Shown: positions 23,512 to 48,569 of the stretch, piece by piece
Layout: each line of letters begins with the position of its first letter
Position numbering within the stretch: position 1 is the stretch's first letter
Source: Actinokineospora enzanensis DSM 44649
GTDB lineage: Bacteria > Actinomycetota > Actinomycetes > Mycobacteriales > Pseudonocardiaceae
DNA length: 64,000 nt
Assembly: GCF_000374445.1 (NCBI RefSeq)
Contig: NZ_KB894407.1
Coordinates: 124,001 to 188,000, forward strand
Direction: 5' to 3'
Notes under the pieces: model-generated
Database searches by the model: none
What the model saw: only the letters and a program-made list of their open reading frames with translations
Told to the model about the DNA's origin: nothing
Translations under genes and position numbers: made by a program

Positions 23512-24645
23512 TCAGGACGATGCTGCTCCCTCGCCCCGGACGCGGCCCGCGATCCACGGCGGGAGGCCGTCCTCGTCGTTGCGTCCCTTCTCGATGAAGG
23601 CGATGTTGTGGTGGACATGCACACCGACGACCGCGCCCGCGGTCGCGCCCGGCGTCGCCGCCGAGACCCGCTCGGCGTGGTGCAGGCCGTCGAGCAGGGA
23701 CTTGAGCAGCCCGACCGAGGTGTGCCCGGGTGCGGTGTCCGTGTCGACCCCGCCGAACGACGGCCAGTACGCCGTCTGCAGGTCCTCCACCACGTACACG
23801 CCCCCGTCGCGCACGTGCGGGAACAGCGTGGCGAACGTGCTGTGGACGTGGGCGTTCAGGTGGCTGCCGTCGTCGATGACCACATCGAACGGTCCGTGTT
23901 CGCGGGCCACGGCCAGCAGTGTCCCCGGATCGGACTGGTCGCCCACCACGACGGTCACGCGCGGCGCGGTCAGCGCGGTCTTGTCGACCACGTCCATGCC
24001 CACGATCCGGCCGCGCGGGAACCATCGTCGCCACATCCGCAGGGACGCCCCGCCCAGTTCGCGCCCGTACCCGCCGATGCCGATCTCCAGGAGTCGGATC
24101 GGCCGGTCGCGGAAGGGCGCCAGGTAGTTCTCGTAGTGCCGCGTGTACCAGTGGAAGCTCGCCCACTTGTCCGAGCCGTACCGCACGGACAGCTCGCCGA
24201 GCGCGGGGGCGGCCGCCAGGCCGGACATGATCGTGCCGGTGGCCTGTGCGGCGGCGCGCATCAGCGGGTCCGGTCCGGCGTGGTCGCGCGGGGGAGCGGG
24301 CAGGAAGCGGTTGCCGAAGTCACCGCCTCGCCGGGTACCGCCGAAGAGTCGGCAGGCGAGGTCGACCGCGGTGAACCGCAGGACCATGCCGACCGGTTCC
24401 GCGTCGTTGTCCACCGCGGTCGGCGGTTCGTCCCGCACCAGCCGGAGCGCGGTCCGTGCCGTCTCGGTGCCCGCGGTGATGTCCAGGACGACGTGCACGG
24501 GGTGGGTGTTGGCGGGCGGGTCGCAGCGGAACACGACCTCGTCGACCAGCACCGCCGCCACCGCGGCCAACCCGGCCTCATCGACCAAGCGGGCCACCGC
24601 GTCCGGGTCCGGTCCGGCGAGCAGGAGACGGGTCACGATGTCCAC
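23512..24645 (-). CDS. Deoxysugar O-methyltransferase (MycE/ElmMI type)
   Basis: A 377-residue SAM- and metal-dependent sugar O-methyltransferase. The C-terminal half shows the family's 'ELSVRYGSDKW' entry, Rossmann 'LLEIGIGGYG', 'VIDDGSHLNAHVH', 'YVVEDLQTAYWP' and 'HVHHNIAFIEKG' blocks. The N-terminal 130 residues form the extra domain of MycE/ElmMI. In tetracenomycin/elloramycin and mycinamicin pathways these enzymes methylate sugar hydroxyls after glycosyl transfer. The GTG at 24645 lies 8 bp after the C-methyltransferase stop with GAGGGG upstream. A longer open frame upstream only reflects GC bias. It is the last gene of the 27113-23512 transcript and marks the left edge of the polyketide cluster. 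Confidence 0.85.
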   Translation of the reverse strand: MDIVTRLLLAGPDPDAVARLVDEAGLAAVAAVLVDEVVFRCDPPANTHPVHVVLDITAGTETARTALRLVRDEPPTAVDNDAEPVGMVLRFTAVDLACRLFGGTRRGGDFGNRFLPAPPRDHAGPDPLMRAAAQATGTIMSGLAAAPALGELSVRYGSDKWASFHWYTRHYENYLAPFRDRPIRLLEIGIGGYGRELGGASLRMWRRWFPRGRIVGMDVVDKTALTAPRVTVVVGDQSDPGTLLAVAREHGPFDVVIDDGSHLNAHVHSTFATLFPHVRDGGVYVVEDLQTAYWPSFGGVDTDTAPGHTSVGLLKSLLDGLHHAERVSAATPGATAGAVVGVHVHHNIAFIEKGRNDEDGLPPWIAGRVRGEGAASS

Positions 24646-24653
24646 GGGACCCC

Positions 24654-25931
24654 TCACCCGGCCATCGCGGAGTCGCCCGCGGCCACGACCGCCGGGTGCG
24701 GGATCGGGCGGATGAACCGACCGCCGCCCGCGAGGAACTCCCGTTCCCGCCGCACGATCTCGTCGGTGTAGTTCCACGCCAGCAGCAGGAAGTAGTCGGG
24801 CGGGTTCGCCCTGGCGTGCGCGGGCACCTCGACCGGGATGTGGCTGCCCGGCAACACCTTGCCCTGCTTCAGATCGGTGGTGTCGATGCAGAACGACACC
24901 TCGTCCCGGCCGATGCCGCAGGTCGTCAGCACCGTGTTCCCCTTGGCCGGGGCCCCGTACCCGGCGATGGTCGCGCCGCCCGCGCGCAGGTCGCGCAACA
25001 GCTGCGGCAGCTCGGCCCGGATCAGCGCCACCCGCCGGGAGAAGTGCCCGTAGGTCCCGTCGTCGAACACGCCCGCCGCCCGCTCCAGCTCGACCAGCCG
25101 GTCGACCGACGGCCTGGTCGGCCACGGGCCCTCGGCGCGCGCGACGACCACCACGACGGAACCGCCGTGCACCGCCGTCCGCTCGACGTCGACCACCCGC
25201 AGCCCGAACCGCGCGAACAGCGTCGCCATCGTCGACACGCACAGGTAGGACAGGTGTTCGTGGTAGATGGTGTCGAACGCGGTCTGGTCCAGCAGGTCCA
25301 GCAGGTACGGCACCTCGATGGCGAACACGCCGCGCGGCGAGAGCAGCTCCCGCACGCCCTCGGCGAGCCCGGCGAGGTCGTCGACGTGGCCGAAGACGTG
25401 CCGTCCCAGCACCAGGTCGGCGTGGCCGCGCTCGCGGGCGATGCGCCTGCCGAGGTCCGCGTCGAAGAACTCCACCAGGGTCTGCACCCCGTTGGCCGCG
25501 GCGCGGCCCGCGAGGTTCCTGGCCGGGTCCACGCCGAGCCCGCGCATCCCCGCCCGCTGGAACTCCACCAGCTGCTGCCCGGTGTTGCTGCCCAGCTCGA
25601 CGACGAACGAGCCGGGGCCGAGCCCGAACCGGGTGCCCAGCAGCTCGGCCACCCAGCGCATGTGCCGGGTGATCGTCACCGACTCGGAGGTCACGTACGC
25701 GTAGTCGCGGTAGAGCAGCTCGGGGTCGACCACGTGGGTCAGGCTCATCAGCCTGCAGGACCGGCAGGACTGGGCGCCCAGCGGGAACGTGCGCTCGTCC
25801 GCGTAGGACGCGGCCGGGTCGAGGTAGTTGTTGGCCAGCGGGACCGAGCCGAGGTCGACGACCGGCAGCCAGTCGTCGGCCCCGCAGACCCGGCAGGCGG
25901 TCACGCGGCGCACGCCGTCGGCGGTGTTCAC
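24654..25931 (-). CDS. NDP-deoxysugar C-methyltransferase (TylCIII/NovU-type)
   Basis: A 425-residue enzyme of the three-part C-methyltransferase family. An N-terminal zinc site (CRVC ... CRSC) is followed by a SAM domain ('FVVELGSNTGQQL') and a C-terminal domain with 'GYGAPAKGNTVL'. The central 'YEH'-like motif 'FDTIYHEHLSYL' is present. Members add a methyl group to C3 or C5 of NDP-4-keto sugars, giving branched deoxysugars such as mycarose, axenose or noviose. The GTG at 25931 overlaps the upstream stop by 4 bp (GTGA) and has GGAGG upstream. It implies that at least one sugar of the product is C-methylated. Confidence 0.88.
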   Translation of the reverse strand: MNTADGVRRVTACRVCGADDWLPVVDLGSVPLANNYLDPAASYADERTFPLGAQSCRSCRLMSLTHVVDPELLYRDYAYVTSESVTITRHMRWVAELLGTRFGLGPGSFVVELGSNTGQQLVEFQRAGMRGLGVDPARNLAGRAAANGVQTLVEFFDADLGRRIARERGHADLVLGRHVFGHVDDLAGLAEGVRELLSPRGVFAIEVPYLLDLLDQTAFDTIYHEHLSYLCVSTMATLFARFGLRVVDVERTAVHGGSVVVVVARAEGPWPTRPSVDRLVELERAAGVFDDGTYGHFSRRVALIRAELPQLLRDLRAGGATIAGYGAPAKGNTVLTTCGIGRDEVSFCIDTTDLKQGKVLPGSHIPVEVPAHARANPPDYFLLLAWNYTDEIVRREREFLAGGGRFIRPIPHPAVVAAGDSAMAG

Positions 25932-26290
25932 AGTGGAGCCTCCCTGTCGGCGCGGTCGGTATGGCCGCGGCCGGTCGCGGTACCCGCGATCTCGTAGAGC
26001 TCGTACCGCCCGGCCGGGCGGTCGAGGTGGCGGTAGCCGTCGAGCTTCCCGGTGTGCGCGCGGTGCGCGGGGTCGTCGGCCCAGGCGCGGAAGGCGACCA
26101 GGCTCTCCCACTCGCTGGCCACCACGAACTCTCCGGGCGCGGACACCGACCGCAGCAGCTCGTTGCCGCGCAGGCCGGGGACGTCCACCAGCCCGGCACC
26201 GATCTCCCGGTAGGCCCGCTCCAGGTTCTGGACCTCATCGCCCGTCGCGCGGTACCACAACAGCGCGCGCACGCGGCCCACCTCAGCCAC
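25928..26290 (-). CDS. ABM-family (antibiotic biosynthesis) monooxygenase
   Basis: A 120-residue small alpha/beta-barrel protein of the cofactor-free monooxygenase (ABM/TcmH-like) group, with 'VRALLWYRATGDEVQNLERAYREIG' split by a helix and 'ELLRSVSAPGEFVVASEWES' as the strand region. Such enzymes oxidise anthrone-type carbons to quinones without flavin or metal, or act as cyclase-like partners. The GTG start overlaps the preceding ABM gene by 8 bp and the stop overlaps the C-methyltransferase start by 4 bp. It is clearly co-translated with polyketide tailoring genes. Which carbon it acts on cannot be told. Confidence 0.75.
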   Translation of the reverse strand: MAEVGRVRALLWYRATGDEVQNLERAYREIGAGLVDVPGLRGNELLRSVSAPGEFVVASEWESLVAFRAWADDPAHRAHTGKLDGYRHLDRPAGRYELYEIAGTATGRGHTDRADREAPL

Positions 26291-26606
26291 GGCCCGCCCC
26301 GGCCAGCTCGGTCACGACGGTGGTGGTCCACATCCGACCGCCCTCGCGGAACGGCTGGAGCCGCTCGCGGTGGCCGACGTGGGCGTCGCTGTGCTCGAAG
26401 GTCCGGAACGCCGCCTCGTCCGTCCAGTCGCTGATGATGTAGTAGTGGCCGTCACCGGTGGTGCTGCGCATCAGCCACTGGCCGAGGTTCGCCGGGTCGC
26501 CCGCGACGACGTCCCCCACGCTCACCCATGTCTTCTCGAACTCCTCTGCCATGCCCTCGCGGATCCGCATCTGCAGGATCACGCGGAACGGCGCGGAAAC
26601 ACTCAT
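26283..26606 (-). CDS. ABM-family (antibiotic biosynthesis) monooxygenase
   Basis: A 107-residue ABM-domain protein ('FRVILQMRIREGMAEEFEKTW', 'GQWLMRSTTGDGHYYIISDWTD', 'AFRTFEHSDAHVGHRERL'). It is similar in plan to WhiE-ORF/TcmH-type quinone-forming monooxygenases of type II polyketide clusters. The ATG at 26606 has GGAGGTTGG upstream; a TTG two codons earlier is less likely. Two ABM genes in a row plus a DUF1772 gene upstream suggest a cofactor-free oxygenation set. It lies 45 bp downstream of the DUF1772 gene. Confidence 0.78.
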   Translation of the reverse strand: MSVSAPFRVILQMRIREGMAEEFEKTWVSVGDVVAGDPANLGQWLMRSTTGDGHYYIISDWTDEAAFRTFEHSDAHVGHRERLQPFREGGRMWTTTVVTELAGAGRG

Positions 26607-26651: not shown

Positions 26652-27113
26652 TCAGGCGAGCACGAGGCACACGGCGACCGCGTCCGCGACGACGGCACCG
26701 CAGATCAGGCCTGTCCGCACCAGGTGCCAGCGGCGCCACCGCGCCCGCGGGTCGACGGCGGCCCAGTCGGCGGGCAGGTGGTCGGCGTCCAGACCGGCCA
26801 CCCAGCGGTTGATCGGCGCGGTGCGGGTGGCGGAGACCGCCAGCACCGCCGCCGTCGCCAGCACCGCCACGACCACCGGGACCCGCGCCCGCTCCGGTAC
26901 GGCGACCGCGGCGCCCAGCTCGCACAGCCAGGACAGGCAGGTCAGGATCGGCATCAACGGCTCCAGCCGTGGTCCGGCGAACTGCTTGGCCAGCACGTAG
27001 TCGCGGGGCGCCATGGTGACCAGCAGTGGTTCCGAGGCGAGGGCGGCGCCCAGCATCACCCCGGCCACGACGGCGCTCATGGCGAGTGCCAGCGTGGGCA
27101 GCAGACCGGCCAT
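26652..27113 (-). CDS. DUF1772 anthrone-oxygenase-like membrane protein
   Basis: A 153-residue membrane protein with four predicted helices. It shows the DUF1772 pattern: N-terminal helix with 'GVMLGAALASEPLL', central 'FAGPRLEPLMPILTCLSWL' and C-terminal 'INRWVAGLD ... DPRARWRRWHLVRT'. Eukaryotic members include anthrone oxygenases (HypC/EncC-like), and bacterial copies occur in aromatic polyketide clusters. The ATG at 27113 has a strong GGGAGGTGAC site; an ATG 12 bp earlier would lie across that site. A SARP-type promoter sits at 27151-27183. It is the first gene of the 27113-23512 transcript. Confidence 0.75.
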   Translation of the reverse strand: MAGLLPTLALAMSAVVAGVMLGAALASEPLLVTMAPRDYVLAKQFAGPRLEPLMPILTCLSWLCELGAAVAVPERARVPVVVAVLATAAVLAVSATRTAPINRWVAGLDADHLPADWAAVDPRARWRRWHLVRTGLICGAVVADAVAVCLVLA

Positions 27114-27188: not shown

Positions 27189-28196
27189 TCAGGTCCGCAG
27201 CACCGCCGCGGACCAGGTGAAGCCGGACCCGATCCCGAGCACCAGCAACAGCCGGTCGGTGGCAGGCGCGCCCGCGCGCAGCAGGTGGTCCAGGCCCGCG
27301 AACTGGTCGGCCGCGCCCAGGTGCCCGATATGCCTGCTCCACGCCCAGTTCGTGGCGTCCGGGTCGATGCCGAACGGCCGGAGGAACCCGGCGGTGAGGC
27401 GGCCGAAACCGAAGTGCGGCAGCACGAAGAGGTCGATGTCGGCCAACCCCACGCCCGCGTCGGCGAGCGCCCGGTCGACGGCGGCGCGTTGCCCGTCCAG
27501 GATGCGACCGATGACCTGCGCCAGTCCGACCCGGCGCAGGTACTGCCGGACCCGGGCGTCGGCGGCGAACGGCACACCGCCCGCGAGCGGGGTGTCGGTG
27601 AACGGCTCGTCCCCGCGGTGCATCCGTTCCAGCTCGCCGTCGCCGACGGTGGCCACGCTGAGCAGTCGGGCGAGACCGCCACCACGCGCCAGCACGATGG
27701 CCGCGGCCCCGTCACCGAAGACCATGCCGTTCTCCGCGGTCCACCGGTCGAACGCGGGCGGGCAGAACTTGTCCCCGGCGGACAGCAATGCGGCCTGCCG
27801 CCGTGGGTCGGCCGCCAGGTAGGACGCGGCCAGTTCGAGCGCCGCCATGCCGCCGTTGGACATCTGCCGCACCTCGAACGCCGGGCAGCTCCCGCCCACC
27901 GCCTCGCGTTGCACATAGGACGCGGGCGCCCACAGGTCCAGGCCCTGGTGGTACACGCTCGCGTGCAGCACCAGGGCGAAGTCGGCCGGGTCGCGCCCGG
28001 AGTGCGCCACCGCGCCGATCGCGGCGGCGGCCGCCATCTCGATCGCGGCCTCGTCGCCCGCCACCCGGATCGCCGCCACCCGATCGGTCACCAGCCGGTC
28101 CGCGGGCCAGCGCCCGGCTTCCACCGCCGCCCGAGTGGGCACCTCCGGCGGGAGGTAGGAGCCCGTACCGGCCACGTACAAGTCGTCGCACCGCAC
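27189..28196 (-). CDS. KSIII-like acyltransferase with Ser in place of catalytic Cys (DpsC-like)
   Basis: A 335-residue protein of the KSIII-like acyltransferase/DpsC group. The nucleophile position reads 'VRQMSNGGMAAL', so Ser113 replaces Cys. A His is present in 'LPHFGFGRL', and the family's 'HIGHLGAADQFAGL' carries the C-terminal catalytic region. DpsC of daunorubicin synthesis also uses Ser and selects a propionyl starter with the acyltransferase DpsD. Other relatives (CerJ, ChlB3, PokM2) acylate sugars or aglycones. A divergent discrete acyltransferase gene (28312) fits the DpsC/DpsD pairing. The GTG at 28196 has no leader after the predicted promoter. Confidence 0.82.
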   Translation of the reverse strand: MRCDDLYVAGTGSYLPPEVPTRAAVEAGRWPADRLVTDRVAAIRVAGDEAAIEMAAAAAIGAVAHSGRDPADFALVLHASVYHQGLDLWAPASYVQREAVGGSCPAFEVRQMSNGGMAALELAASYLAADPRRQAALLSAGDKFCPPAFDRWTAENGMVFGDGAAAIVLARGGGLARLLSVATVGDGELERMHRGDEPFTDTPLAGGVPFAADARVRQYLRRVGLAQVIGRILDGQRAAVDRALADAGVGLADIDLFVLPHFGFGRLTAGFLRPFGIDPDATNWAWSRHIGHLGAADQFAGLDHLLRAGAPATDRLLLVLGIGSGFTWSAAVLRT

Positions 28197-28311: not shown

Positions 28312-29517
28312 ATGACCACCGGGGAGCCCCGACTGGTGTGCTGGTGGGGCGCCGACGAGCGGGCCGCCGCGCGGATGGCCGAGCGGGTCGTCGCGGCCCT
28401 GGCCGCGGGGACCGATCCGCCCGACCCGTCGGTCGCGGGCCCGGGTGACCTGGTGCGCGGCGCCGTGGTCGCCGCGGACGCGGCCACGGCCGCCGCCCGG
28501 GTGTCGGCCGTCCGACCGGTCCGCGCTCGTGACCGCCCGGTCGTGCTCCTGCTCCCCGGCCAGGGCGCGCAGCAACCGCGCATGGCGGCGGGCCTGTACC
28601 GGCACGAGCCGATGTTCACCCGGCACGTCGACGAGCTGCTCGACCGGTTCGACGACCGGGTCCGCGCGGCCTGGCTCGCGGACCCGGCCCCCGGTCCCGC
28701 GGTCTTCGACGACCTGGCCATCGCCCAGCCGCTGCTTTTCGCGATCGGCCACGCACTGGCCCGGGTCGTGCTCGGGTGGGGCCTGCGGCCTGCCGAGCTG
28801 CTCGGCTACAGCGTCGGCGAGTTCGTGGCGGCGACGGTGGCGGGTGTCTTCGCCCCCGCCACCGCGGCGGAACTGTTGCGGGAGCGGGTCGAGCGGCTCG
28901 GCGAGGCCACCCCCGGTGGGATGCTGGCCGTGCTGGCCCCGCCCGACGCGGTGGCCGACCTGCTCGGCGGGGGAGTGGCGGTCGGCGCGGTGAACGCGCC
29001 GCGGCAGACGATCCTCGCGGGTCCCGACGGCCCGCTCGACGCGGTCGCGGCCCGGTTGCGCGAGCGCGGGATCACCTGCCGTCGGGTGCGTGCCCGACAG
29101 CCCTTCCACAGCCCGGTCATCGCCCCGGCCTGTGCCGCGTCGATCCCCGCCGTGGCGGCGGTGCCGCTGTCCGCGCCCGTGATCCCGGTGCGCTCGGCCT
29201 ACACCACCCGGGTGCTGCGCCCCGACGAGGCTCGCGACCCGGTGTTCTGGGCCATGCAGCCCGCGGAACCGGTGCTGTTCCACCCGACGCTCGACACCCT
29301 GCTCGCCCGCGACCACCTGCTGCTCGACATCGGACCGGGACAGAGCCTGACCTCACTTGCCGCGCTGCACCCGGCGGTGCGGTCCGGGGCGAGCGGGGTG
29401 GTCCCCCTGCAACCGGCGGCAGCGTCGCCTGTGGACGATCGAGCCGCGCTGCTGGCCGCCAAGGGCAGGCTGTGGGCCGAGGGCTCCCTGCCCCTGCACG
29501 GGTCCCGATCGATCTGA
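28312..29517 (+). CDS. Discrete acyltransferase (malonyl/acyl-CoA:ACP type, DpsD-like)
   Basis: A 401-residue protein. After about 75 N-terminal residues comes a full acyltransferase domain with 'LLLPGQGAQQPRM', nucleophile Ser167 in 'GYSVGEF', and His266 in 'QPFHSPVI'. Both catalytic residues are intact. Discrete ATs in type II clusters (DpsD, ZhuC) help select or edit the starter unit. It is the only polyketide gene in this block on the plus strand. It is divergent from the DpsC-like gene, which suggests joint expression. The ATG is preceded by AAGGGAG. A terminator follows at 29567. Confidence 0.85.
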   Translation: MTTGEPRLVCWWGADERAAARMAERVVAALAAGTDPPDPSVAGPGDLVRGAVVAADAATAAARVSAVRPVRARDRPVVLLLPGQGAQQPRMAAGLYRHEPMFTRHVDELLDRFDDRVRAAWLADPAPGPAVFDDLAIAQPLLFAIGHALARVVLGWGLRPAELLGYSVGEFVAATVAGVFAPATAAELLRERVERLGEATPGGMLAVLAPPDAVADLLGGGVAVGAVNAPRQTILAGPDGPLDAVAARLRERGITCRRVRARQPFHSPVIAPACAASIPAVAAVPLSAPVIPVRSAYTTRVLRPDEARDPVFWAMQPAEPVLFHPTLDTLLARDHLLLDIGPGQSLTSLAALHPAVRSGASGVVPLQPAAASPVDDRAALLAAKGRLWAEGSLPLHGSRSI

Positions 29518-29613: not shown

Positions 29614-30639
29614 TCAGCGCCGGGTCGCGATCACCAAGGTCTCGGTGCCCGCGATCGGTTGCGACGTCACGTCGTCGAACCCGTGCCGGACCAGCAGCTC
29701 CCGACAGTCCGCCACCGTGTACTCGGCACCGTCCGGTGTGGTCAGCAGCATGTTCAGGCTGCCGAGCAGGCTCAACGCCGACCCCCGGCGGTCGTCGGCG
29801 ATCATCCGGTCGTAGATCGCCACCCGGCCGCCCGCGGGGAGCGCGGCGTGCGCCTTGCCCAGCAGCATGGCGCGGTCGTCGGGGGACGCGCCGTGCAGGA
29901 CGTGGCCGAGGACGAGCACGTCCCCCGCGGGCAGCGGTGCCCGCTCGAAGTCGACGGCGGCGAACCGGATCCGGTCGCCGAGCCCGAAGCGGGGGATGTG
30001 CTCGTCGTACAGGCGTTCCACCGCGGGCAGGTCGAGGCAGACACCGCGCAGCGTCGGGTTGGCGGACAGCAGGACGCCGAGCAGGTTGCCGCGGGCGCCG
30101 CCGACATCGACCACGGTGGTCGGCTCCGGTGCCTCCGACAACCGGAGCGCGGCGGCCAGCTCGACCGCCACCCTGGTGCTGACGGTGTCCATGGCGGCCA
30201 TGAACTTCCGCGCCGTGACCGGGTCCTGGTACATGCCGTCGAGGAACACCGCGCCTGCCGCGCCCTGCGGCTTGCCCGTGCGCAACGCCTCGGTGAGGTT
30301 CCCCCACACTCCATAGAGGACTGTCCCGGCCATCTCGGCCAGTCCGCCGAGGTAGGCGGGCGAGTTCCGGTCGAGGAACATCCGCGTCGACGGGGTCGGC
30401 TGGTAGCGGTCCTCGTCGTCGCGGTCGAGCAGGTCGAGCGCGACCAGCGCGTCCAGGAAGTCGCGGCTCGACCGCGGGTGCAGGCCGCACCGCCGCTCGA
30501 CCTCGGCGGCCGTGCCCGCCGCGGCGGCCAGCTCGGTGAACAGGTCGAGCTCGACCGCGGCCTGCACGGCCCGGGAGGCGAAGAACCCCATGGTGAGCTG
30601 GTGCAGGCGGGCGGGGTCGAGCCCGGCGGTGGTGGTCAT
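29614..30639 (-). CDS. SAM-dependent O-methyltransferase (TcmO/polyketide type)
   Basis: A 341-residue class I methyltransferase with an N-terminal winged dimerisation domain ('AVELDLFTELAAAAGT') and a SAM site 'VVDVGGARGNLLGVLL'. A conserved acidic loop 'AVDFERAPLPAGDVLVLGHVLHG' follows. It belongs with polyketide O-methyltransferases such as TcmO. The ATG overlaps the preceding methyltransferase stop by 4 bp. It is the last gene of the core operon. It probably methylates a phenolic hydroxyl of the aglycone; the position is unknown. The usual catalytic His of strict O-MTs seems present as 'GHVLHG'. Confidence 0.83.
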   Translation of the reverse strand: MTTTAGLDPARLHQLTMGFFASRAVQAAVELDLFTELAAAAGTAAEVERRCGLHPRSSRDFLDALVALDLLDRDDEDRYQPTPSTRMFLDRNSPAYLGGLAEMAGTVLYGVWGNLTEALRTGKPQGAAGAVFLDGMYQDPVTARKFMAAMDTVSTRVAVELAAALRLSEAPEPTTVVDVGGARGNLLGVLLSANPTLRGVCLDLPAVERLYDEHIPRFGLGDRIRFAAVDFERAPLPAGDVLVLGHVLHGASPDDRAMLLGKAHAALPAGGRVAIYDRMIADDRRGSALSLLGSLNMLLTTPDGAEYTVADCRELLVRHGFDDVTSQPIAGTETLVIATRR

Positions 30640-32146: not shown

Positions 32147-32412
32147 GACCGGGCCTCGACGAGGCGGTCGTTCACGTAGTCGACGACCGACCGCGGCGTG
32201 GTCAGCCGCTCGACCAGCTCGTCGGGCACCTCGAAGTCGTAGCGCCGCCCGATCAGCGAGGTCAGCTCCAGCACGGCGAGCGAGTCGTAGCCCAGCTCGG
32301 GGAACCCGGTGTCGAGGATGTCGGCGCCCAGGTCGACGCCGTCGTCGACACCGACCGCGGCGCGCATGATCTCCCGCAGGTCGTCGAGGGTGAACGTGGT
32401 GGTCTGGCTCAT
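32143..32412 (-). CDS. Acyl carrier protein of type II PKS
   Basis: An 89-residue ACP with the phosphopantetheine site at Ser44 in 'LGYDSLAVLEL'. It is the only ACP found in the cluster, although clusters that use special starters often carry a second one. It sits in the standard place between KS-beta and the aromatase. The ATG at 32412 is 28 bp after the KS-beta stop. Confidence 0.93.
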   Translation of the reverse strand: MSQTTTFTLDDLREIMRAAVGVDDGVDLGADILDTGFPELGYDSLAVLELTSLIGRRYDFEVPDELVERLTTPRSVVDYVNDRLVEARS

Positions 32413-40894: not shown

Positions 40895-41449
40895 GTGACC
40901 GAGCGCACCGACGTTCCCGCCCGCCCGTCTGCGGCACCGGGCCGGGTGGTGTTGCTGACCGGCCTGTCCGGCTCCGGCAAGACCACTCTCGCGGCCGCCG
41001 TCGTGACCGCGTTGGTCCGAAGTGGACGGCGCGGCGAGGTGCTCGACGGGGACCGGCTGCGCGGCCGCTTCTGGCCGGAGCTCGGCCTCACCCCGGTCGA
41101 CCGCCGGGCCAACCTGGCGCGCGCCGGGGACCTCGCCGTGCTGCTCGCGCGCCACGGCGTCGACGTGGTCCTGGCGATGATCGCCCCGGAGGCGGCTGCG
41201 CGGGCGCGGCTGCGCGCGGCCTGTGCCGAGCACGGCGCCTTCTACGAGGTGCACCTGGACCCGGGCGTCGAGGTGTGCCGGGCCCGGGACGTCAAGGGCC
41301 TCTACGCCCGGCAGGCCGCAGGCGAGATCACCGGCCTCACCGGGGTGGACGCCCGCTACGACGTGCCCGCGCACCCCGACCTGAGGTTGGACACCGGCGC
41401 GGCCGATGTCGGGTCGTGCGCGCGACGGGTGCTCGACCTGTTGGCGTGA
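40895..41449 (+). CDS. cysC: Adenylylsulfate (APS) kinase
   Basis: A 184-residue kinase making PAPS from APS and ATP. The P-loop is 'GLSGSGKTT' (23-31). It also has 'EVLDGDRLRGRFWPELG', 'DRRANLARAGDLAVLLA' and the family's 'CRARDVKGLYARQAAGEI' and 'GVDARYDVPAHPDL'. A stand-alone APS kinase inside a polyketide cluster, with a sulfotransferase, argues for a dedicated PAPS supply. The GTG is chosen because the P-loop follows at normal distance; no ribosome-binding site is evident, in line with a leaderless message. Confidence 0.92.
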   Translation: MTERTDVPARPSAAPGRVVLLTGLSGSGKTTLAAAVVTALVRSGRRGEVLDGDRLRGRFWPELGLTPVDRRANLARAGDLAVLLARHGVDVVLAMIAPEAAARARLRAACAEHGAFYEVHLDPGVEVCRARDVKGLYARQAAGEITGLTGVDARYDVPAHPDLRLDTGAADVGSCARRVLDLLA

Positions 41450-41567: not shown

Positions 41568-42326
41568 TCAGGCCGGGACCGCCGCGGGGATCCGACCGAC
41601 GTAGCGGTCCAGCAGCGTGTCCGCGTGGTCGGCGTCGTCGCGGCTCGGCCAGTCCGGCACCAGTGCGCGCAGTCTGCGCACCGACGTGGCCGTGGTGACC
41701 ACCGGCCGGTCCACGTACCGGCGTGCCACCCGGGTGCCGAGCCGCCGTTCGATCCCCTCCACGATCCGCTCGACCGGGGTCAGCACCCCGGACGCGACGT
41801 TCACGACCGTGTCGCGGGTGTCCGAGGCGAGGAGGCCGTCCAGCGCGCCGACCACGTCCCGGACGTCCACGAGGTCGCGGTGGGCGTGCCGGAAGATCGT
41901 GACCCGGCCCGCGCGCACCTGCCCGACCAGGGCGGGCAGCAGCTGGTGCGGGCGCTGGCCGACACCGAGGACGTGCGCGAGGCGCAGGGTGAGGTGGCGG
42001 GCGCCGGAGGCGGCGAGGACGGCCTCCATGGCGAGCTTGTGCCTGCCGTAGGCGGAGGTCGGGAAGACCGGCCCGTCCTCGGCGCCGGTCGCCCCGATCC
42101 CGCCGTACATGGAGTCCGACGCGGTGGAGAAGAACACGACCGTCCGCCCGTCGGCCCGGCACCGCCGGGTGACGTCGTAGACCAGCGCGGCCTCGCGGTC
42201 GAACTCCGCGGCGGTCGCGTCGATCGTCCGGGTCACCCCGGCGGCGAGCGCGGTGACCTCGGGATGCCGGTCGCCGAACGCGATGTGCAGATGACGGGCG
42301 AGGAACCCGTTCCCGACGATCTCCAT
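41568..42326 (-). CDS. NAD-dependent epimerase/reductase, likely NDP-hexose 4-ketoreductase
   Basis: A 252-residue extended SDR-like protein. The nucleotide loop is the short variant 'IVGNGFLARHL'. Downstream are 'FFSTASDSMYGG' and the catalytic Tyr/Lys in 'TSAYGRHKLAME', then 'RLAHVLGVGQRPHQLLPAL'. The short N-terminus and sequence style resemble NDP-4-keto-deoxysugar reductases of anthracycline clusters (SnogC/UrdR-like by impression). It lies between the APS kinase (convergent) and the membrane protein gene (42369). It is probably co-transcribed with the genes upstream. Confidence 0.75.
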   Translation of the reverse strand: MEIVGNGFLARHLHIAFGDRHPEVTALAAGVTRTIDATAAEFDREAALVYDVTRRCRADGRTVVFFSTASDSMYGGIGATGAEDGPVFPTSAYGRHKLAMEAVLAASGARHLTLRLAHVLGVGQRPHQLLPALVGQVRAGRVTIFRHAHRDLVDVRDVVGALDGLLASDTRDTVVNVASGVLTPVERIVEGIERRLGTRVARRYVDRPVVTTATSVRRLRALVPDWPSRDDADHADTLLDRYVGRIPAAVPA

Positions 42327-42368: not shown

Positions 42369-42938
42369 CTAGCGCCTGCGCAGGGACCGGCGCGGGGTGC
42401 GGGCGGTGATCGGCAGCGTGCGCACGCCGGTGGCGCGGGCCCGCGGCACGATGGTGGCGGCCTCGACGACCAGGGACAGGCCGAGCATGAGCATCAGCGT
42501 CCGCTGGTCCGCGGCCACCCGGGCGCCCGCGGCGTGCGCGCCCGCGTCCAGGGCGAGCCGGACGCCGCCGAGCCCGATCCAGATGACCAGCGTCGACACG
42601 CGGTAGCGCATCCACAGGTAGCCGTTCTTCTCGAACAGCGCGACGCTGCGCCCGCGCGCCCATCCCGTCGCCGCCGCGAGCGCGGCGGCGACCAGCAGGA
42701 ACACCACGTCCAGGCCGGTGATCCCGGTGACCCCGCCCGCGAAGTCGGCGACCCCGACCACCAGGAACACCGGCGGCAGCAGGAACAGCCGCCGCGCCTG
42801 GACCGGTTCGCCGTAGAACCGGACCGCGATCACGACCAGCACGATCGCCACGACCACCAGCACGCGCAGCCGCTCGGGTACCGCGGCCAGCGGTCCGCCG
42901 TCGGCCGCGAGCAGCCGTCCTTCACTCGGTGCGTTCAT
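42369..42938 (-). CDS. Membrane protein, CcdC/DUF1453-like
   Basis: A 189-residue protein with about four to five hydrophobic helices (27-41, 52-68, 74-92, 110-127, 145-162). The central 'LFEKNGYLWMRYRVSTLVIWIG' resembles CcdC-type (DUF1453) proteins. Its function is unknown. A palindrome sits 16 bp upstream and matches the operator at the marR start (44831), so it is a likely MarR target. A role in resistance or export is possible, but there is no direct evidence. Confidence 0.6.
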   Translation of the reverse strand: MNAPSEGRLLAADGGPLAAVPERLRVLVVVAIVLVVIAVRFYGEPVQARRLFLLPPVFLVVGVADFAGGVTGITGLDVVFLLVAAALAAATGWARGRSVALFEKNGYLWMRYRVSTLVIWIGLGGVRLALDAGAHAAGARVAADQRTLMLMLGLSLVVEAATIVPRARATGVRTLPITARTPRRSLRRR

Positions 42939-42983: not shown

Positions 42984-43721
42984 TCACATGCCGCCGTCGA
43001 CCGTCAGGGTCTGCCCGGTGAGGTAGGTGGACAGTCCACTGGCGAGGAACACGACCACCCCGGCGACCTCGGCCGGGTCGCCGAGCCTGCCCAGCGCGGC
43101 CATCGCCTCGTAGCGCGCCAGCCGCTCCCTGGGCAGGGCGGCGGCCTCCTCGGTCAGGATCGCGCCGGGGGCGACCGTGTTGACCCGGATCCGGCGCCCG
43201 CCCAGCTCCTTGGCCAGGGTCCGGGTCAGCCCGAGCAGGCCCGCCTTGGCCGCGGCGTAGTGGCTGCGCAGCGGGACGCCCACCACCGCCACCCGGGAGC
43301 CGATGTTGACCACCGACCCGCCGTCGGCGAGCACCGGCAATGCCGCCCTGGTCACCAGGTAGGCCGAGGTGAGCCCGGCGGTGAGGACCCGGTTCCACTC
43401 GGCCAGTTCGAGCTCGGCGAACGGCACGTGGCTGATCGCCGCGGCGTTGTTGACCACCACGTCGAGTGCGCCCAGTCGCTCGCGGGCGGTCTTGACCAGT
43501 ACCTGCACGTCGGCGGGATCGGCCACGTCGGCCCGGACGAAGTGGTGCTCGCCGGGGGTGTCGGCCAGCTCGGCCGCGAGCGCCGCGGCGGCCGCGTCGT
43601 CACTGCGGTAGCAGCCGACCACCGACGAGCCCGCGGCCGCGAAGGCGCGGGTGATGCCCGCGCCGATGCCGCGGGTGGCCCCGGTGATGAGGATGTTCTT
43701 GCCCGTCAGGCCGAGTGTCAT
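42984..43721 (-). CDS. Short-chain dehydrogenase/ketoreductase (FabG-like)
   Basis: A 245-residue classical SDR with all motifs intact: 'GATRGIGAG', 'NNAAA', Ser in 'VNIGSRVAV' and Tyr/Lys in 'HYAAAKAGL'. FabG-like enzymes in aromatic clusters reduce a polyketide carbonyl or a starter beta-keto group made by KSIII. The latter would fit the KSIII and enoyl-reductase-like genes here. It has its own SARP-type promoter and appears leaderless. Confidence 0.85.
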   Translation of the reverse strand: MTLGLTGKNILITGATRGIGAGITRAFAAAGSSVVGCYRSDDAAAAALAAELADTPGEHHFVRADVADPADVQVLVKTARERLGALDVVVNNAAAISHVPFAELELAEWNRVLTAGLTSAYLVTRAALPVLADGGSVVNIGSRVAVVGVPLRSHYAAAKAGLLGLTRTLAKELGGRRIRVNTVAPGAILTEEAAALPRERLARYEAMAALGRLGDPAEVAGVVVFLASGLSTYLTGQTLTVDGGM

Positions 43722-43995: not shown

Positions 43996-44748
43996 ATGGA
44001 GTTCAGAGTGCTGGGGTCGGTGGAAGTGCACGAGGCCGGACGGGCGTACCGGCCGCGGGCGGCGAAGCTGCGCGATGTGTTGCGGCTGCTGGTGTTCCGG
44101 GCGGGCGAGTTCGTGGCCACCGATACGATCATGCAGGAACTGTGGGAAGACAACCCGCCGGTGAGCAGCATCACCACCACCCAGACCTACATCTACCACC
44201 TTCGCCGGGCCTTCGCCGAGGAGCTCGGCGTGCCCCGGCCCGAGGACGTGCTCACCACCCGGCAGGCGGGCTATCTGCTTCGGGCGGACCCGGCCGACAC
44301 GGACTGCGGTCGGTTCGCCGCACTCATCGGGCGCGGGCGGGACCTCGCGGGCGCGGGCCGGTGGGCCGAGGCGGCCGCGGCACTGCGCGAGGCGCTCGCG
44401 CTCTGGCACGAACCACACGCGAGATCGGCGACGGTGACCACGCTGAACGCCCAGCACCTGGAGCACTACCAGGAACTGCACCGCGCCGCGGTGGAGTTGC
44501 GCGTGACGGCCGATCTGCGCCAGGGCAGGCATCGGGAGCTGATCCCGGAACTGCGGGCGCTGGTCCTGCGGAATCCGCTGAACGAATGGTTCCACGCGCA
44601 GTTGATAAGTTGTCTCGGCGTGTCGGGGCGGCGCGGTGAGGCGCTGGAGGCCTATCGCAGCGCCCGGCGCATCATCATCGACGAGCTCGGCCTTGAGCCG
44701 TCCGTCGAACTGCAGCGGGTCCATCGCGAGATGCTCGCGACCGGGTGA
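43996..44748 (+). CDS. SARP-family pathway-specific activator
   Basis: A 250-residue small SARP. It has an N-terminal OmpR-type winged helix ('MEFRVLGSVEVHEAGRAYRP', 'TQTYIYHLRRAF', 'RQAGYLL') and a bacterial transcriptional activation domain ('CGRFAALIGRGRDL' to 'ELGLEPSVELQRVHREML'). Such activators (ActII-ORF4, DnrI) bind heptameric direct repeats with 11-bp period near -35. Six such sites occur in this cluster. The ATG follows GGGGGATGG. A perfect 17-bp terminator lies directly downstream. About 234 bp upstream of the gene hold no other gene; an imperfect inverted repeat (CTTGCCCG/CGGACAAG, 43863-43887) there may be regulatory. Confidence 0.92.
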   Translation: MEFRVLGSVEVHEAGRAYRPRAAKLRDVLRLLVFRAGEFVATDTIMQELWEDNPPVSSITTTQTYIYHLRRAFAEELGVPRPEDVLTTRQAGYLLRADPADTDCGRFAALIGRGRDLAGAGRWAEAAAALREALALWHEPHARSATVTTLNAQHLEHYQELHRAAVELRVTADLRQGRHRELIPELRALVLRNPLNEWFHAQLISCLGVSGRRGEALEAYRSARRIIIDELGLEPSVELQRVHREMLATG

Positions 44749-44802: not shown

Positions 44803-44848
44803 TTGACAGGCGGTCGGACGGCATGGGATGTTACCTTCATGGAAGTAA
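44803..44848 (+). promoter_or_regulatory. Promoter and operator of marR operon
   Basis: A consensus -35 TTGACA (44803-44808) is followed after 18 bp by GATGTT (44827-44832). The expected transcript start coincides with the ATG at 44839, and no ribosome-binding site is present. A palindrome TTACCTTCATGGAAGTAA (44831-44848) covers the start codon. Confidence 0.6.
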
Positions 44849-45318
44849 CTAACAACCAGAGCTGGGCGCTGGTCCGACAGCTGTGGACCGTCGCCCAGCA
44901 CGTGCGCCGCGGTCAGGCGGCCAGTCCGCACAACGCGGTCACCGTGCAGTTGCTCGCGCTCGCCGCGGAACACGGGCCGCTGCGCCCGCAGGACGTGGTG
45001 AGCCTGCTCGACGTCACCGCGCCGTCCGCCACCCGGTATGTCCAGGCCCTGGAGCAGGCCGGGCAGATCGACGTGATCGCCGACGCCAACGACGGGCGGA
45101 CCTACCTGATCCAGGTCAACGAGAAGGGCCGCGAGGTGCTCGACTCGTTGCGCGACGACCTGCTGGAGGCCATGCGGCCGGTCATCGGCGACTTCGACCA
45201 GGAGGAGATAGAGACGCTGCTCGACCTGCTCGGCAGGCTGACCGCCTCGATGGCCGAGCACGCGCAGACCCGGCCCGCGCGGCCGAGTCGCAAGAACCGT
45301 TGGCGGGCGGGCGCGTGA
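44839..45318 (+). CDS. MarR family transcriptional regulator
   Basis: A 159-residue MarR-type winged-helix protein ('LLALAAEHGPLRPQDVVSLLDVTAPSATRYVQALEQAG', wing 'DANDGRTYLIQVNEKG'). The start at 44839 is chosen because the TTG at 44803 belongs to a -35 element. The operator over its start predicts autorepression. The same half-site occurs upstream of the membrane protein gene at 42938. It heads a five-gene run (marR, SDR-like, VC0807-type, LuxR-type, RmlD-like) linked by overlaps or short gaps. Confidence 0.87.
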   Translation: MEVTNNQSWALVRQLWTVAQHVRRGQAASPHNAVTVQLLALAAEHGPLRPQDVVSLLDVTAPSATRYVQALEQAGQIDVIADANDGRTYLIQVNEKGREVLDSLRDDLLEAMRPVIGDFDQEEIETLLDLLGRLTASMAEHAQTRPARPSRKNRWRAGA

Positions 45319-46097
45319 CCGGTCGGTCGACCACATCCCCGCCGCGCCTGCTCGCGGGCCGCACCGTGCTGGTCACCGGGGCGTCGCGCGGCATCGGCGC
45401 GGCCACCGCGCGCCTGCTGGGCGGACACGGCGCGGCGGTCGGGGTCAACTACCACTCCTCCCGCGCGGCGGCCGACGAGGTCGTCGGGGCCATCCGCGCG
45501 GCAGGCTCGCCCGCGACCGCCGTGCGCGCCGATGTCGCCGACGCGGACGAGGTCCAGGCGATGGTCGAGTCCGTCCGCGCCGAGCTCGGGCCGGTGGACA
45601 CCCTGGTGCTCAACGCGGCGGGCCACAAGGGCGCCTTCGCCCCGAGGCCGCTGATCGAGTCCACCGTGTCCGAACTGGCCGCGCTGGTCGACGAGCAGCT
45701 GCGGGCACTGCTCGGGCCGTGTCGGGCGGCCCTGCCGGACATGATCGAGAGCGAGCGCGGCTGCGTGGTCGTGGTGGGCTCCGGCATGTCGACGCAACCA
45801 CAGCCGGGCATGGGCCTGCCCAGCGTGGCCAAGGCCGCGGCGGACGCGGTGGCCAGGGTGCTCGCGCTCGAACTCGGCCCGCTCGGCGTGCGCGTCAACG
45901 TGCTGGCGCCCGGTTTCGTCGAGACCGACACCAGTGCCCGCTTCGTCCCGCCCGCGGCTCGCGAGCACCTGGCCAAGTCGGTGCCGTTGCGCCGCAACGC
46001 GGTGCCCGACGATGTCGCGGGGGCGGTCCTGCTGCTGGTGTCGGAGTACGCGGGTTACCTCAGCGGGGGCCGGATCCGCCTCAGCGGTGGGCTGTGA
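45315..46097 (+). CDS. SDR-fold protein lacking catalytic Tyr
   Basis: A 260-residue SDR with intact nucleotide loop 'VTGASRGIGAATA' and 'LNAAGH'. The normal YxxxK motif reads 'GLPSVAKAA', with Pro169 in place of Tyr and Lys173 kept. The Ser region is 'VVVGSGMST'. The C-terminal 'RVNVLAPGFVETD' and 'YLSGGRIRLSGGL' fit the family. Classical dehydrogenase activity is therefore doubtful. Non-redox SDR-fold proteins can act in dehydration, binding or cyclisation. The GTG overlaps the marR stop by 4 bp. Confidence 0.8.
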   Translation: MTGRSTTSPPRLLAGRTVLVTGASRGIGAATARLLGGHGAAVGVNYHSSRAAADEVVGAIRAAGSPATAVRADVADADEVQAMVESVRAELGPVDTLVLNAAGHKGAFAPRPLIESTVSELAALVDEQLRALLGPCRAALPDMIESERGCVVVVGSGMSTQPQPGMGLPSVAKAAADAVARVLALELGPLGVRVNVLAPGFVETDTSARFVPPAAREHLAKSVPLRRNAVPDDVAGAVLLLVSEYAGYLSGGRIRLSGGL

Positions 46098-46132: not shown

Positions 46133-46810
46133 ATGTCTGGACCTGCCACCGACACGACCGGCGCGCGCACCGCGCCCACGATCGGCGACCGGGTGAAGGC
46201 CGTCGCGGCGCCGTTGTTGCTCGACCTCGTTCTGCCGTACGCGATCTACCTCGTGCTCACCGCGCTCGACGTGCCCGTGGTGGTGGCGCTGACCGCGGGC
46301 GGTCTGGTGCCCGCGGGCCGGGCCGCGGTGCACTGGCGCCGGACCCGGTCCGTCGACCTGGTCGCGGTCGCGATCGCCGGGCTGTTCCTGCTCGGCGCGG
46401 TGTTCTCCGCGATCACCGGCGACCCGCGGTTCGCGGTGGCGAAGGAGTCCCTGCTCACCGGTGCGGGCGGGCTGTTCTGCCTGGCCACACTGGCGATGCG
46501 CAGGCCCGCGATGTTCTTCGTGCGCCAGCGGTTCTCGCCGTTCCCGCCGCGCGCCTGGGACCGGGCCTGGACCGGGTCGACGGCGCTGCGCCGGGACCTG
46601 CGGGTGCTGACCGCCGCGTGGGGCGTCGGCCTGCTGGTGGAGGCCGCGGGCCTGCTGGTGCTCGTCTACACCGAGCCGGTGGACAAGACCGCCGCGATCG
46701 CGCCCCTGGCCAACATCGGCGTGATCGTCCTGCTGGTCACCTTCACCCACGCCTACACCTTCCTGACCCGCCGCAACCTCGACGTCGCGGCCATGACGGA
46801 CGGGGCATGA
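46133..46810 (+). CDS. VC0807-family membrane protein
   Basis: A 225-residue protein with six likely membrane segments. The order of helices and the motifs 'LPYAIYLVLTALDVPVVVALTAGG' (in part) and 'ITGDPRFAVAKESLLTGAGGL' match the VC0807/intracellular septation protein A-like family. 'RRPAMFFVRQRF' is also typical. The function is unknown; such genes are often near antibiotic or MarR/TetR regulator genes. It is part of the MarR-controlled run, 35 bp after the SDR-like gene. Confidence 0.72.
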   Translation: MSGPATDTTGARTAPTIGDRVKAVAAPLLLDLVLPYAIYLVLTALDVPVVVALTAGGLVPAGRAAVHWRRTRSVDLVAVAIAGLFLLGAVFSAITGDPRFAVAKESLLTGAGGLFCLATLAMRRPAMFFVRQRFSPFPPRAWDRAWTGSTALRRDLRVLTAAWGVGLLVEAAGLLVLVYTEPVDKTAAIAPLANIGVIVLLVTFTHAYTFLTRRNLDVAAMTDGA

Positions 46811-46965
46811 CACCGGCCGCGGCCCGGGGCGCCCGGTGCGTGCGGCCCGTGCCGCGGGTGCGCGTGGACGGTTCCCGACCCGGTCGCCGGGGCGTCCGCG
46901 TCGGGAACCACGGCCCCGGCCGACGACTGTCCGATCGCACCAGTTCGCGTCGAAGGGGGCGGCTC

Positions 46966-47712
46966 ATGCGGGATACCTGCGAGGTCGGCGACAGACGGCT
47001 GCAGCGGATGGCGCAGTGCTTGCGCGGTTTCCAGATCGGCCCGCGGCACGGGCCGGACCCGACGACGTTGGTCGGCCCCCGGTTGCCGTCCGGGCCGGGC
47101 CGGGTCGTCGTGGTCGGCAACGCGGTGCTGTTCCGCGACGGCCTGGCGCAGCTCATCGCCGATGAGGAGGACCTGCGCGTGGTCGCCGCGGTGGACGAGT
47201 CCGAGGACGTCGCGCGGTCGCTGCCGTTGTCGGCCCCCGACGTCGTGGTCTACCACCCGGAGCCGGACGACCCGGGGACGCGCCTGCGCACGTTGTCCGA
47301 TGCCCTGCCGGGGGTGGGTTTCGTCCTGCTGACCCCGCCGTCGCCCGCGTACCCGGTGCCGCTGCCCAGGACGGGGGCCACGGTGCTGCGGGTGTCGGTC
47401 CAGGTGTCCGGCGCCCGGTTCGTGGCCGCGGTCCGGGACGCGTGGACCCGGTCGTGCGGGGCGAGCCGGGTCGGGGCGACCGCCGAGGACGAGCTCTCGC
47501 CGCGGGAGACCGAGGTGCTCGACCTGGTGGCCGCCGCCTACACCAACGGCCAGATCGCCCGGCTGCTGCGGATCTCGGAGAACACGGTGAAGCGGCACCT
47601 GCGCAGCGTCTTCCGCAAGCTGCACGCGGTGTCCAGGATCGACGCGGTCAACCGCGCGACCGCGCGCTCGCCGAAGGGGGCCGCGGATGTCGGGTCGAGG
47701 ACGCCGTCGTGA
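46966..47712 (+). CDS. LuxR-type regulator with degenerate receiver domain
   Basis: A 248-residue NarL/FixJ-like protein. A C-terminal LuxR helix-turn-helix spans about 178-235 ('LSPRETEVLDLVAAAYTNGQIARLL', 'NTVKRHLRSVFRKL'). The N-terminal part is receiver-like ('RVVVVGNAVLFRDGLAQLI'), but the phosphoacceptor position reads 'PDVVVYHPEP', so His97 replaces Asp. Activity is probably phosphorylation-independent. The ATG at 46966 has AAGGGGG upstream. An in-frame ATG at 46807 overlapping the previous stop would add 53 Arg-rich residues and is less likely. Confidence 0.8.
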   Translation: MRDTCEVGDRRLQRMAQCLRGFQIGPRHGPDPTTLVGPRLPSGPGRVVVVGNAVLFRDGLAQLIADEEDLRVVAAVDESEDVARSLPLSAPDVVVYHPEPDDPGTRLRTLSDALPGVGFVLLTPPSPAYPVPLPRTGATVLRVSVQVSGARFVAAVRDAWTRSCGASRVGATAEDELSPRETEVLDLVAAAYTNGQIARLLRISENTVKRHLRSVFRKLHAVSRIDAVNRATARSPKGAADVGSRTPS

Positions 47713-48569
47713 CCGCGCGCACGGTCGTCCTGGGCGCGGGCGGCCAGGTGGGGCGCGCTGCCACGGCCGCGTTGCCCGGCGCGGTCGGACTGGGACACGA
47801 CGAGCTGGACATCGCCCGGCCGGTCGGTCCGGACTGGGCGGCGGTGGACCTGGTCGTCAACGCCGCCGCGTACACCGACGTGGCGGGGGCGGAGCACCCG
47901 ACGGGACGGGCGGCCGCCTGGCGGGCCAACGCCGAAGGGCCCGCCGCGCTCGCGCGTCTCGCCGCCGTGCACGGGTTCACCCTCGTCCACGTCTCCAGTG
48001 ACTACGTGTTCGACGGGCGCCACGGCGAACCCTGCCGGGAGGACACGCCCTTCGCGCCCGTGAACACCTACGGTGCGAGCAAGGCCGCCGGGGACCTCGT
48101 GGTCGGCCTCGTCCCGCGGCACTACGTGGTGCGGCCGTCGTGGCTGGTGGGGGACGGGCCGAACTTCGTACGCACCATGTTGGACCGGGCCCGGCGCGAC
48201 GAGCCCGCGGTGGTGGTGGCCGACCAGGTCGGCAGGCCGACGTTCGCCGTGGACGTGGCGGCGGCGGTGGCGCACCTGGCGGGCTCGGGGGCCCCGTTCG
48301 GGACCTACCACGTGACGGGCACCGGCGACCCGGTCAGCTGGGCCGACCTCGCCAGGACGACCTACCGGCTCGCGGGCGCTGACCCGGACCGGGTCACCGA
48401 CGTGGCGACCGCCCGCTACCGGCAACGGTATCCGGACGCCGTGCCGAGGCCCGCGTCGAGCGTGCTGGACACCGACAAGGCCCGACGTGCGGGCGTCCCG
48501 CTGCGGGACTGGCGGGACCGTCTCGCCGAATACGTGCGCGAGTCGACCTCCCGGCCGCGCACGCCGTAG
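47709..48569 (+). CDS. dTDP-4-dehydrorhamnose reductase family protein
   Basis: A 286-residue RmlD-type reductase. The NADPH loop is 'VLGAGGQVGRAA', the Ser/Asp site 'HVSSDYVFDG' and the Tyr/Lys pair 'NTYGASKAAGD'. It reduces the 4-keto group of an NDP-6-deoxysugar. With the C-methyltransferase and the second reductase it would finish the cluster's sugars. The genes for the early steps (nucleotidyltransferase, 4,6-dehydratase, epimerase) are not in this window. The GTG overlaps the LuxR-type stop by 4 bp. It is the right-hand edge of the cluster. Confidence 0.87.
   Translation: MTARTVVLGAGGQVGRAATAALPGAVGLGHDELDIARPVGPDWAAVDLVVNAAAYTDVAGAEHPTGRAAAWRANAEGPAALARLAAVHGFTLVHVSSDYVFDGRHGEPCREDTPFAPVNTYGASKAAGDLVVGLVPRHYVVRPSWLVGDGPNFVRTMLDRARRDEPAVVVADQVGRPTFAVDVAAAVAHLAGSGAPFGTYHVTGTGDPVSWADLARTTYRLAGADPDRVTDVATARYRQRYPDAVPRPASSVLDTDKARRAGVPLRDWRDRLAEYVRESTSRPRTP

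Follow-up and report, generated by a model that had tools for sequence, protein, structure and literature searches.

A putative sulfation gene pair in an orphan, probably pentangular polyphenol glycoside cluster of Actinokineospora enzanensis

Does the type II polyketide cluster in a 64,000-nucleotide stretch of the Actinokineospora enzanensis DSM 44649 genome (contig NZ_KB894407.1, positions 124,001 to 188,000; hereafter, the window) make a sulfated aromatic glycoside, and to which structural class would such a product belong? Judging from its genes, the cluster very probably belongs with the pentangular polyphenols (pradimicin, benastatin, frankiamicin) as an orphan pentangular glycoside cluster, and it carries genes for a sulfotransferase (g38) and an adenosine 5'-phosphosulfate (APS) kinase (g40) that would form a built-in sulfation pair; a sulfated product is the outcome we favour, with moderate confidence. 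Sulfated glycosylated pentangular compounds are already known chemically (pradimicin S); the new element would be the pairing of a sulfotransferase with an APS kinase in such a cluster, a combination absent from about a hundred related clusters examined, and it supplies a specific candidate pair, g38 and g40, and a predicted structure class.

Gene models were obtained with a codon-usage gene caller and assigned to families by Pfam and NCBIfam profile searches. A preceding reading made from the letters of the window (the sequence-only reading) had placed a type II cluster with a series of named enzyme classes at positions 23512 to 48569, and gene calling and Pfam bore this out: 30 genes, g20 to g49, occupy exactly this span and form one coherent type II polyketide cluster. 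All except g42 and g47 have a Pfam match (28 of 30). The G+C content at third codon positions (GC3) is 0.88 to 0.99 across all 30 genes and adjacent genes overlap by 1 to 13 bases at 12 of the 29 junctions, as expected of real genes. The minus strand carries 19 of the 20 genes from g20 to g39, the exception being g26, whereas g40 and g44 to g49 lie on the plus strand.

The putative sulfation pair and the two glycosyltransferase genes next to it are the following:
37727..38944, minus strand: g37, EryCIII-like glycosyltransferase (PF21036 and PF06722)
38932..39645, minus strand: g38, PF17784 sulfotransferase (Sulfotransfer_4, 182.7 bits; PDB SgdX2, 8y9p)
39649..40782, minus strand: g39, EryCIII-like glycosyltransferase (PF21036 and PF06722)
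40895..41449, plus strand: g40, APS kinase, CysC-like (PF01583, 147.4 bits; TIGR00455 above its cut-off)

Thus, both genes of the pair, as the sequence-only reading had it, are present. The g38 protein is a full-length PF17784 member (cut-off 22.8 bits; profile positions 1-214 of 215), and among solved structures it comes closest to SgdX2 (165 bits) and to an entry named 'sulfotransferase family protein' (159 bits); open-licence papers listed for sungeidine and enediynes include nothing on SgdX2. In an alignment with 84 other sequences (76-84 letters per column), it retains R10, G12, T13, S15, H30, D67, P69, R91, S99 and N212, among which R10, G12, T13, S15, R91 and S99 presumably have roles in binding 3'-phosphoadenosine 5'-phosphosulfate (PAPS). 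The gene is sandwiched between both glycosyltransferase genes within one operon, lying 3 bases from g39 and sharing 13 bases with g37. From this position we reject the idea that g38 is a chance neighbour, and for the site of the predicted sulfate we slightly favour a sugar hydroxyl over a phenol. The APS kinase gene is divergent from g39 across 112 bases and could conceivably be a chance neighbour, being on the strand opposite to the operon. The kinase scores 147.9 against the TIGR00455 cut-off of 138.7 and contains the Walker A, DGDxxR and KGLY motifs, and its nearest kin are CysC genes, which adjoin CysN in 26 of 29 loci.

Homologues of the sulfotransferase were sought in overlapping sets of genomes, drawn from the genus (16), the family (297), the class (394) and a further family, f19 (341). 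None is close: among the matches listed, identity does not exceed 52% over most of the length or 58% over stretches of about 100 residues. An APS kinase, CysN or arylsulfotransferase (ASST)-like gene lies within about 1.5 kb in 23 of the 31 same-family sulfotransferase loci and in none of the 35 control loci; these 23 loci are not independent, with eight representing one genus-shared cassette (seven genomes; two of the loci hold fragments of a single gene) and eleven a sulfotransferase gene adjoining CysN. This frequent placement of same-family relatives makes PAPS-dependent sulfation the best reading of g38.

In the same genome, the genus-shared cassette (L093; contig C1, 437000-456900) combines, by Pfam, an ASST gene, a fusion of APS kinase with an inositol-phosphatase-family domain, a PF17784 gene and a type I polyketide synthase (PKS), and six other genomes of the genus have APS kinase, PF17784 and ketosynthase (KS) matches (L085-L092). 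Besides g40, this genome contains two further APS kinase matches. The eleven same-family loci with a PF17784 gene beside cysN are L109, L110, L112-L116, L118-L120 and L122, and seven of them also contain an arylsulfotransferase-like match.

Several observations weigh against a working sulfation pair. Sulfate-activation neighbours were found in none of the 29 wider-class and none of the 29 f19 sulfotransferase loci, which limits the link between the PF17784 family and sulfate activation to part of that family's range, and it is with these loci, not with the sulfate-linked ones, that g38 groups, albeit weakly (FastTree support 0.77-0.82). The protein departs from invariant columns at V5 (G in 76/76), M11 (T in 76/76) and A198 (F in 84/84) and from nearly invariant or prevalent residues at A17 (K in 72/77), Y170 (H in 79/84; Y in 3) and R97 (Y in 63/84); the substitutions E21T, F143D, K17A, H170Y and Y97R fall in columns that are 75-94% conserved. 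In the GRTGT loop, R10, G12 and T13 are kept and T11 is changed to M. Altogether, g38 deviates at 10 of 60 conserved columns, the most among 58 sequences (runner-up, 9), and a single-sequence structure model was uninformative, with a predicted local distance difference test (pLDDT) score of 40.5. The kinase, too, is divergent, with L65 (F in 37/37) and E99 (Y in 34/37), both positions presumably near the APS site, and deviations at 13 of 66 conserved columns (third of 38 sequences). Finally, no CysD or CysN is among the Pfam matches of g20 to g49; these genes are found on contig C27.

That contig carries CysC-CysD-CysN-like genes (L002; CysD named by eye) preceded by a gene for a pyridoxal phosphate-dependent enzyme, possibly part of another sulfur pathway.

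For the substitutions in g38 and g40, we favour adaptation to a new acceptor, although they may reflect partial decay. The latter possibility underlies the strongest competitor of a sulfated product, namely that this is a pentangular glycoside cluster in which g38 retains the sulfotransferase fold but no longer sulfates, being degenerate or having another role, so that the product is unsulfated. Besides the changes at conserved positions, including the M within GRxGT, the tree distance of g38 to every relative is long (at least 2.3). A degenerate gene is hard to reconcile, however, with a full-length open frame, a GC3 of 0.96 and a tight operon, and the adjoining kinase, with its three motifs intact, would then lack an evident purpose. 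We regard this alternative as unlikely, though as the likeliest of those considered.

A lesser competitor would have both genes work, with the sulfate placed on an early phenolic intermediate, or serving as a removable protecting or carrier group, and the end product sulfate-free. ASST enzymes transfer sulfate between phenols, and the ASST-like query was matched in 17 of the 31 same-family PF17784 loci; the Pfam matches of g20 to g49, however, include neither an ASST nor a sulfatase family, and we consider such a transient sulfate distinctly improbable. More speculative still is the proposal that the two enzymes have co-diverged towards a changed donor, g40 (F65L, Y99E) making an altered 3'-phosphonucleotide and g38 (G5V, T11M, K17A, Y97R, H170Y, F198A) using it, or another group, on a branched, O-methylated sugar of a pentangular core; we know of no example of changed-donor transfer chemistry in the sulfotransferase fold and give this idea very little credence.

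The structural class is the second part of the question, and the genes that bear on it are those of the minimal PKS, the cyclases, the antibiotic biosynthesis monooxygenases (ABM) and the ketoreductase (KR):
25928..26272, minus strand: g22, ABM monooxygenase in a PdmI-like place (PF03992; adjoins g23 on the same strand)
26283..26606, minus strand: g23, ABM monooxygenase in a PdmH-like place (PF03992; 44-62% identity in 21 pentangular-type loci, which were partly selected by that match)
31682..32146, minus strand: g29, TcmN-type aromatase/cyclase, single domain (PDB 3tl1, polyketide cyclase, 158 bits; TcmN domain, 155 bits)
32143..32412, minus strand: g30, acyl carrier protein (ACP; PF00550; GYDS)
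32441..33670, minus strand: g31, KSbeta, the chain length factor (Pfam, KSbeta tree, AAEQAG)
33667..34932, minus strand: g32, KSalpha (Pfam, NGCTSG)
34929..35351, minus strand: g33, TcmJ-like cupin cyclase (PF07883; matched at 55-69% identity by 20 of the 21 pentangular-type loci, all but L030)
35348..35677, minus strand: g34, TcmI-like cyclase (PF04673, 135.9 bits)
42984..43721, minus strand: g43, BenL/PdmG-type KR (49-59% identity in 21 pentangular-type loci; PDB 5thq, 252 bits)

The motif NGCTSG of KSalpha and, at the corresponding place, AAEQAG of KSbeta are among those that we take to be active-site motifs, as are CAGG/LHQ/GNTGAAS of g36 and QMSNGG of g25 (see below). The order tcmI-J-K-L-M-N pointed out in the sequence-only reading is recovered as g34-g33-g32-g31-g30-g29, except that the 'N' position holds only the TcmN cyclase half (154 amino acids), with the O-methyltransferase being the separate gene g28.

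Pentangular clusters are expected to make five-ring products of about 24 carbons or more. They differ from tetracenomycin clusters in having a pair of neighbouring, co-directional ABM genes and a KR of the BenL/PdmG type (PMC4383371). In the window, g22 and g23 are both on the minus strand, 10 bases apart, and g43 takes its BenL/PdmG-type label from an identity of 49-59% to the KR of the 21 pentangular-type loci. Cyclases of the TcmN, TcmJ and TcmI types are represented by g29, g33 and g34, g33 being assigned by its cupin family and its identity to pentangular-type loci, not to TcmJ itself. Tetracenomycin clusters, in turn, are marked by a single ABM homologue and no pentangular-type KR, whereas two ABM genes and a KR are found here.

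For comparison, 315 loci of named genomes had a KSbeta match, and the best 80 were each examined over up to about 10 kb on either side (a quarter of them, 20 loci, span less than 21 kb). Loci were labelled pentangular-type by gene content, that is, by homologues of the second ABM (ABM2) and of g43 (at least 48% identity), not by named reference clusters, and 21 of the 80 are of this type. In a KSbeta phylogeny, a check that the sequence-only reading had suggested for chain length, the window falls inside a 21-row set (79 rows in total; support 99/92), in which 19 of the 20 other members match ABM2 and encode a KR of at least 48% identity, and away from nine Micromonospora loci (KSbeta identity 64-65%) that lie outside this set; its terminal branch is long (0.72) and its exact placement unsure. 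A pradimicin-like cluster in genome G891 shares KS, ACP, cyclases, KR and one ABM at 48-66% identity (KR 58%), the other ABM being 41% identical.

The two adjacent ABM genes, the BenL/PdmG-like KR and the KSbeta tree jointly place the cluster with the pentangular polyphenols and contradict the tetracenomycin-like product that the sequence-only reading had inferred. A tetracenomycin/elloramycin-like cluster is accordingly a highly improbable alternative that we reject, even though the I-J-K-L-M-N order, the TcmN-type cyclase and the top seven KSbeta matches (64-65%), all Micromonospora loci lacking ABM or KR gene matches, speak in its favour.

The starter unit is likely to be other than acetate, as the following genes suggest:
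27189..28196, minus strand: g25, DpsC-like starter enzyme of the KSIII fold, Ser for Cys (PDB DpsC; QMSNGG)
28312..29517, plus strand: g26, acyltransferase (AT), DpsD-like by place and fold (PF00698; GYSVG)
36690..37730, minus strand: g36, KSIII with Cys-His-Asn motifs (FabH-like, best PDB match 216 bits; CAGG/LHQ/GNTGAAS)

The best PDB match of g25 is DpsC (302 bits, versus 208 for ChlB3 and CerJ), and Ser replaces Cys at the nucleophile position of its KSIII fold, as in DpsC; a CerJ/ChlB3-type acyltransferase is less likely on these scores. Of the DpsC/DpsD-like pair originally proposed, the DpsC label is thus upheld and the DpsD label of g26 goes no further than place and fold. A DpsC-like protein together with a Cys-type KSIII is, to our knowledge, unusual. 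In pentangular clusters, a KSIII or else an adenylation domain encoded on its own goes with a non-acetate starter (PMC4383371), and the presence of both g36 and the g25/g26 pair agrees with the non-acetate starter anticipated earlier.

Sugar formation would involve:
23512..24645, minus strand: g20, MycE-type sugar O-methyltransferase (MycE_N and Methyltransf_24; PDB 3ssm, 'Methyltransferase', 331 bits; 8ia9, demethylmacrocin O-methyltransferase, 292 bits)
24654..25931, minus strand: g21, NDP-sugar 3-C-methyltransferase (PDB 4rv9, D-mycarose 3-C-methyltransferase, 546 bits; TcaB9, 271 bits)
41568..42326, minus strand: g41, NAD-dependent epimerase/dehydratase-like protein, perhaps an NDP-sugar enzyme (PF01370)
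47709..48569, plus strand: g49, RmlD-like NDP-4-ketosugar reductase (PF04321, 219 bits)

We take 3ssm to be MycE and 4rv9 to be MtmC; MycE and TylE (demethylmacrocin O-methyltransferase) methylate the 2-hydroxyl of their sugars. With g21, g20 and the two EryCIII-like glycosyltransferases (g37 and g39), the glycosylated product and the sugar C- and O-methyltransferases of the sequence-only reading are supported. A 4,6-dehydratase match above the cut-off lies on contig C7. A search of the whole genome (8.1 Mb; 99% complete) with the 2,3-dehydratase model PF03559 gave no hit, and neither did any of the 14 controls of that search; since the model does find matches in 4 of 9 other genomes, the sugar probably retains its 2-hydroxyl. 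Together, the 3-C-methyltransferase, the MycE-type O-methyltransferase and the lack of any 2,3-dehydratase match suggest a 6-deoxysugar that is both branched and O-methylated.

The remaining genes of the cluster are:
26652..27113, minus strand: g24, anthrone oxygenase-like protein (PF08592)
29614..30639, minus strand: g27, O-methyltransferase (PF00891)
30636..31685, minus strand: g28, O-methyltransferase (PF00891)
35725..36690, minus strand: g35, zinc-binding dehydrogenase family oxidoreductase (PF00107, PF08240)
42369..42863, minus strand: g42, hydrophobic protein (no Pfam or NCBIfam match)
44008..44748, plus strand: g44, SARP-type activator (PF03704)
44839..45318, plus strand: g45, MarR regulator (PF01047)
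45315..46097, plus strand: g46, short-chain dehydrogenase/reductase family oxidoreductase (PF13561)
46133..46810, plus strand: g47, VC0807-family protein (NF041646, 121.6 bits)
46966..47712, plus strand: g48, LuxR-type regulator (PF00196)

In a pathway compatible with this gene content, a short non-acetate acyl primer would be loaded onto the minimal PKS by the DpsC/AT pair and/or the KSIII, and the TcmN-, TcmJ- and TcmI-type cyclases, the two ABM monooxygenases and the KR would yield a pradimicin-like core of the dihydrobenzo[a]naphthacenequinone type, to be methylated by the two O-methyltransferases. The two glycosyltransferases would then attach sugars, at least one being a 3-C-methyl-6-deoxysugar that keeps its 2-hydroxyl and is O-methylated there by g20; g40 would raise the PAPS supply, and g38 would move sulfate onto a glycoside hydroxyl.

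How rare is such a combination? The sequence-only reading knew of no characterised cluster of this kind, and none closely similar emerged from the sets searched: within the stretches examined, a sulfotransferase or APS kinase match is absent from all 80 KSbeta-matched loci and from 18 further loci, three of which are other type II loci of the same genome (0 of 97 distinct loci, one being shared). The best KSbeta identity across the 297 same-family genomes is 64%. Among the titles and abstract openings listed by searches of the open-licence literature, a body of text that misses most subscription papers, none reports a sulfotransferase of a type II pathway.

The sulfate ester on a glycosylated aromatic polyketide is indeed unusual, as had been stated, but it has a precedent in pradimicin S, a pentangular glycoside with a 3-sulfated glucose in place of the terminal xylose of pradimicin A; pradimicin S is described as highly water-soluble and pradimicin A as of limited solubility (PMC5035034). 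The cluster here resembles that of pradimicin in its minimal PKS, three cyclases, PdmG-type KR, ABM genes and two sugars (PMC5035034, PMC10951976, PMC4383371) and differs from it in adding the KSIII with the DpsC/AT pair, the sugar C- and O-methyltransferases and the APS kinase and in having no P450 or amino-acid ligase Pfam match in g20 to g49. The available texts of the same three papers contain no mention of sulfation genes for pradimicin S. The core gene set is shared with frankiamicin and benastatin, but the frankiamicin clusters have neither a KSIII nor tailoring beyond the KR (PMC4383371), and the sugar and sulfation tailoring genes set the present cluster apart. The likeness to tetracenomycin (tcm) consists in the I-J-K-L-M-N order, the differences being a pair of ABM genes, a KR, and a cyclase and an O-methyltransferase encoded separately, and that to daunorubicin dpsC/dpsD in the Ser-for-Cys DpsC-like protein and the AT, to which a Cys-type KSIII and a pentangular core are added here.

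For the pairing itself, a parallel is the adp (adipostatins) cluster, in which a sulfotransferase and a dedicated adenylylsulfate kinase are encoded together; however, adp further encodes a type III PKS and the complete ATP-sulfurylase, both subunits included (PMC12135136). Of its PAPS cassette of sulfotransferase, APS kinase, CysD and CysN, only the sulfotransferase and the kinase are among the matches of g20 to g49. The notonesomycin cluster likewise has its own sulfotransferase and PAPS genes (PMC7081687). The available text on a glycosylated griseorhodin contains no word beginning with 'sulf' (PMC13200261).

Two related clusters are of separate interest. The pradimicin-like cluster of G891 (L232-L235; contig C1, 365000-440000) encodes two P450s, NDP-sugar enzymes and two glycosyltransferases, and carries a PF17784 gene at its edge, directly beyond the gene for the TcmI cyclase. 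As a candidate for the pradimicin S cluster it was set aside and not counted as support: a similar sulfotransferase-TetR pair occurs without a PKS in genome G926, and the linkage may be accidental. The A. enzanensis genome itself contains a second pentangular-type cluster (L269; contig C4, 255700-275600), which has no sulfotransferase or APS kinase match within the 20 kb examined and encodes a KSbeta and a KR that are 59% and 56% identical to those of the window, two ABM monooxygenases, and a glycosyltransferase 44% identical to g37.

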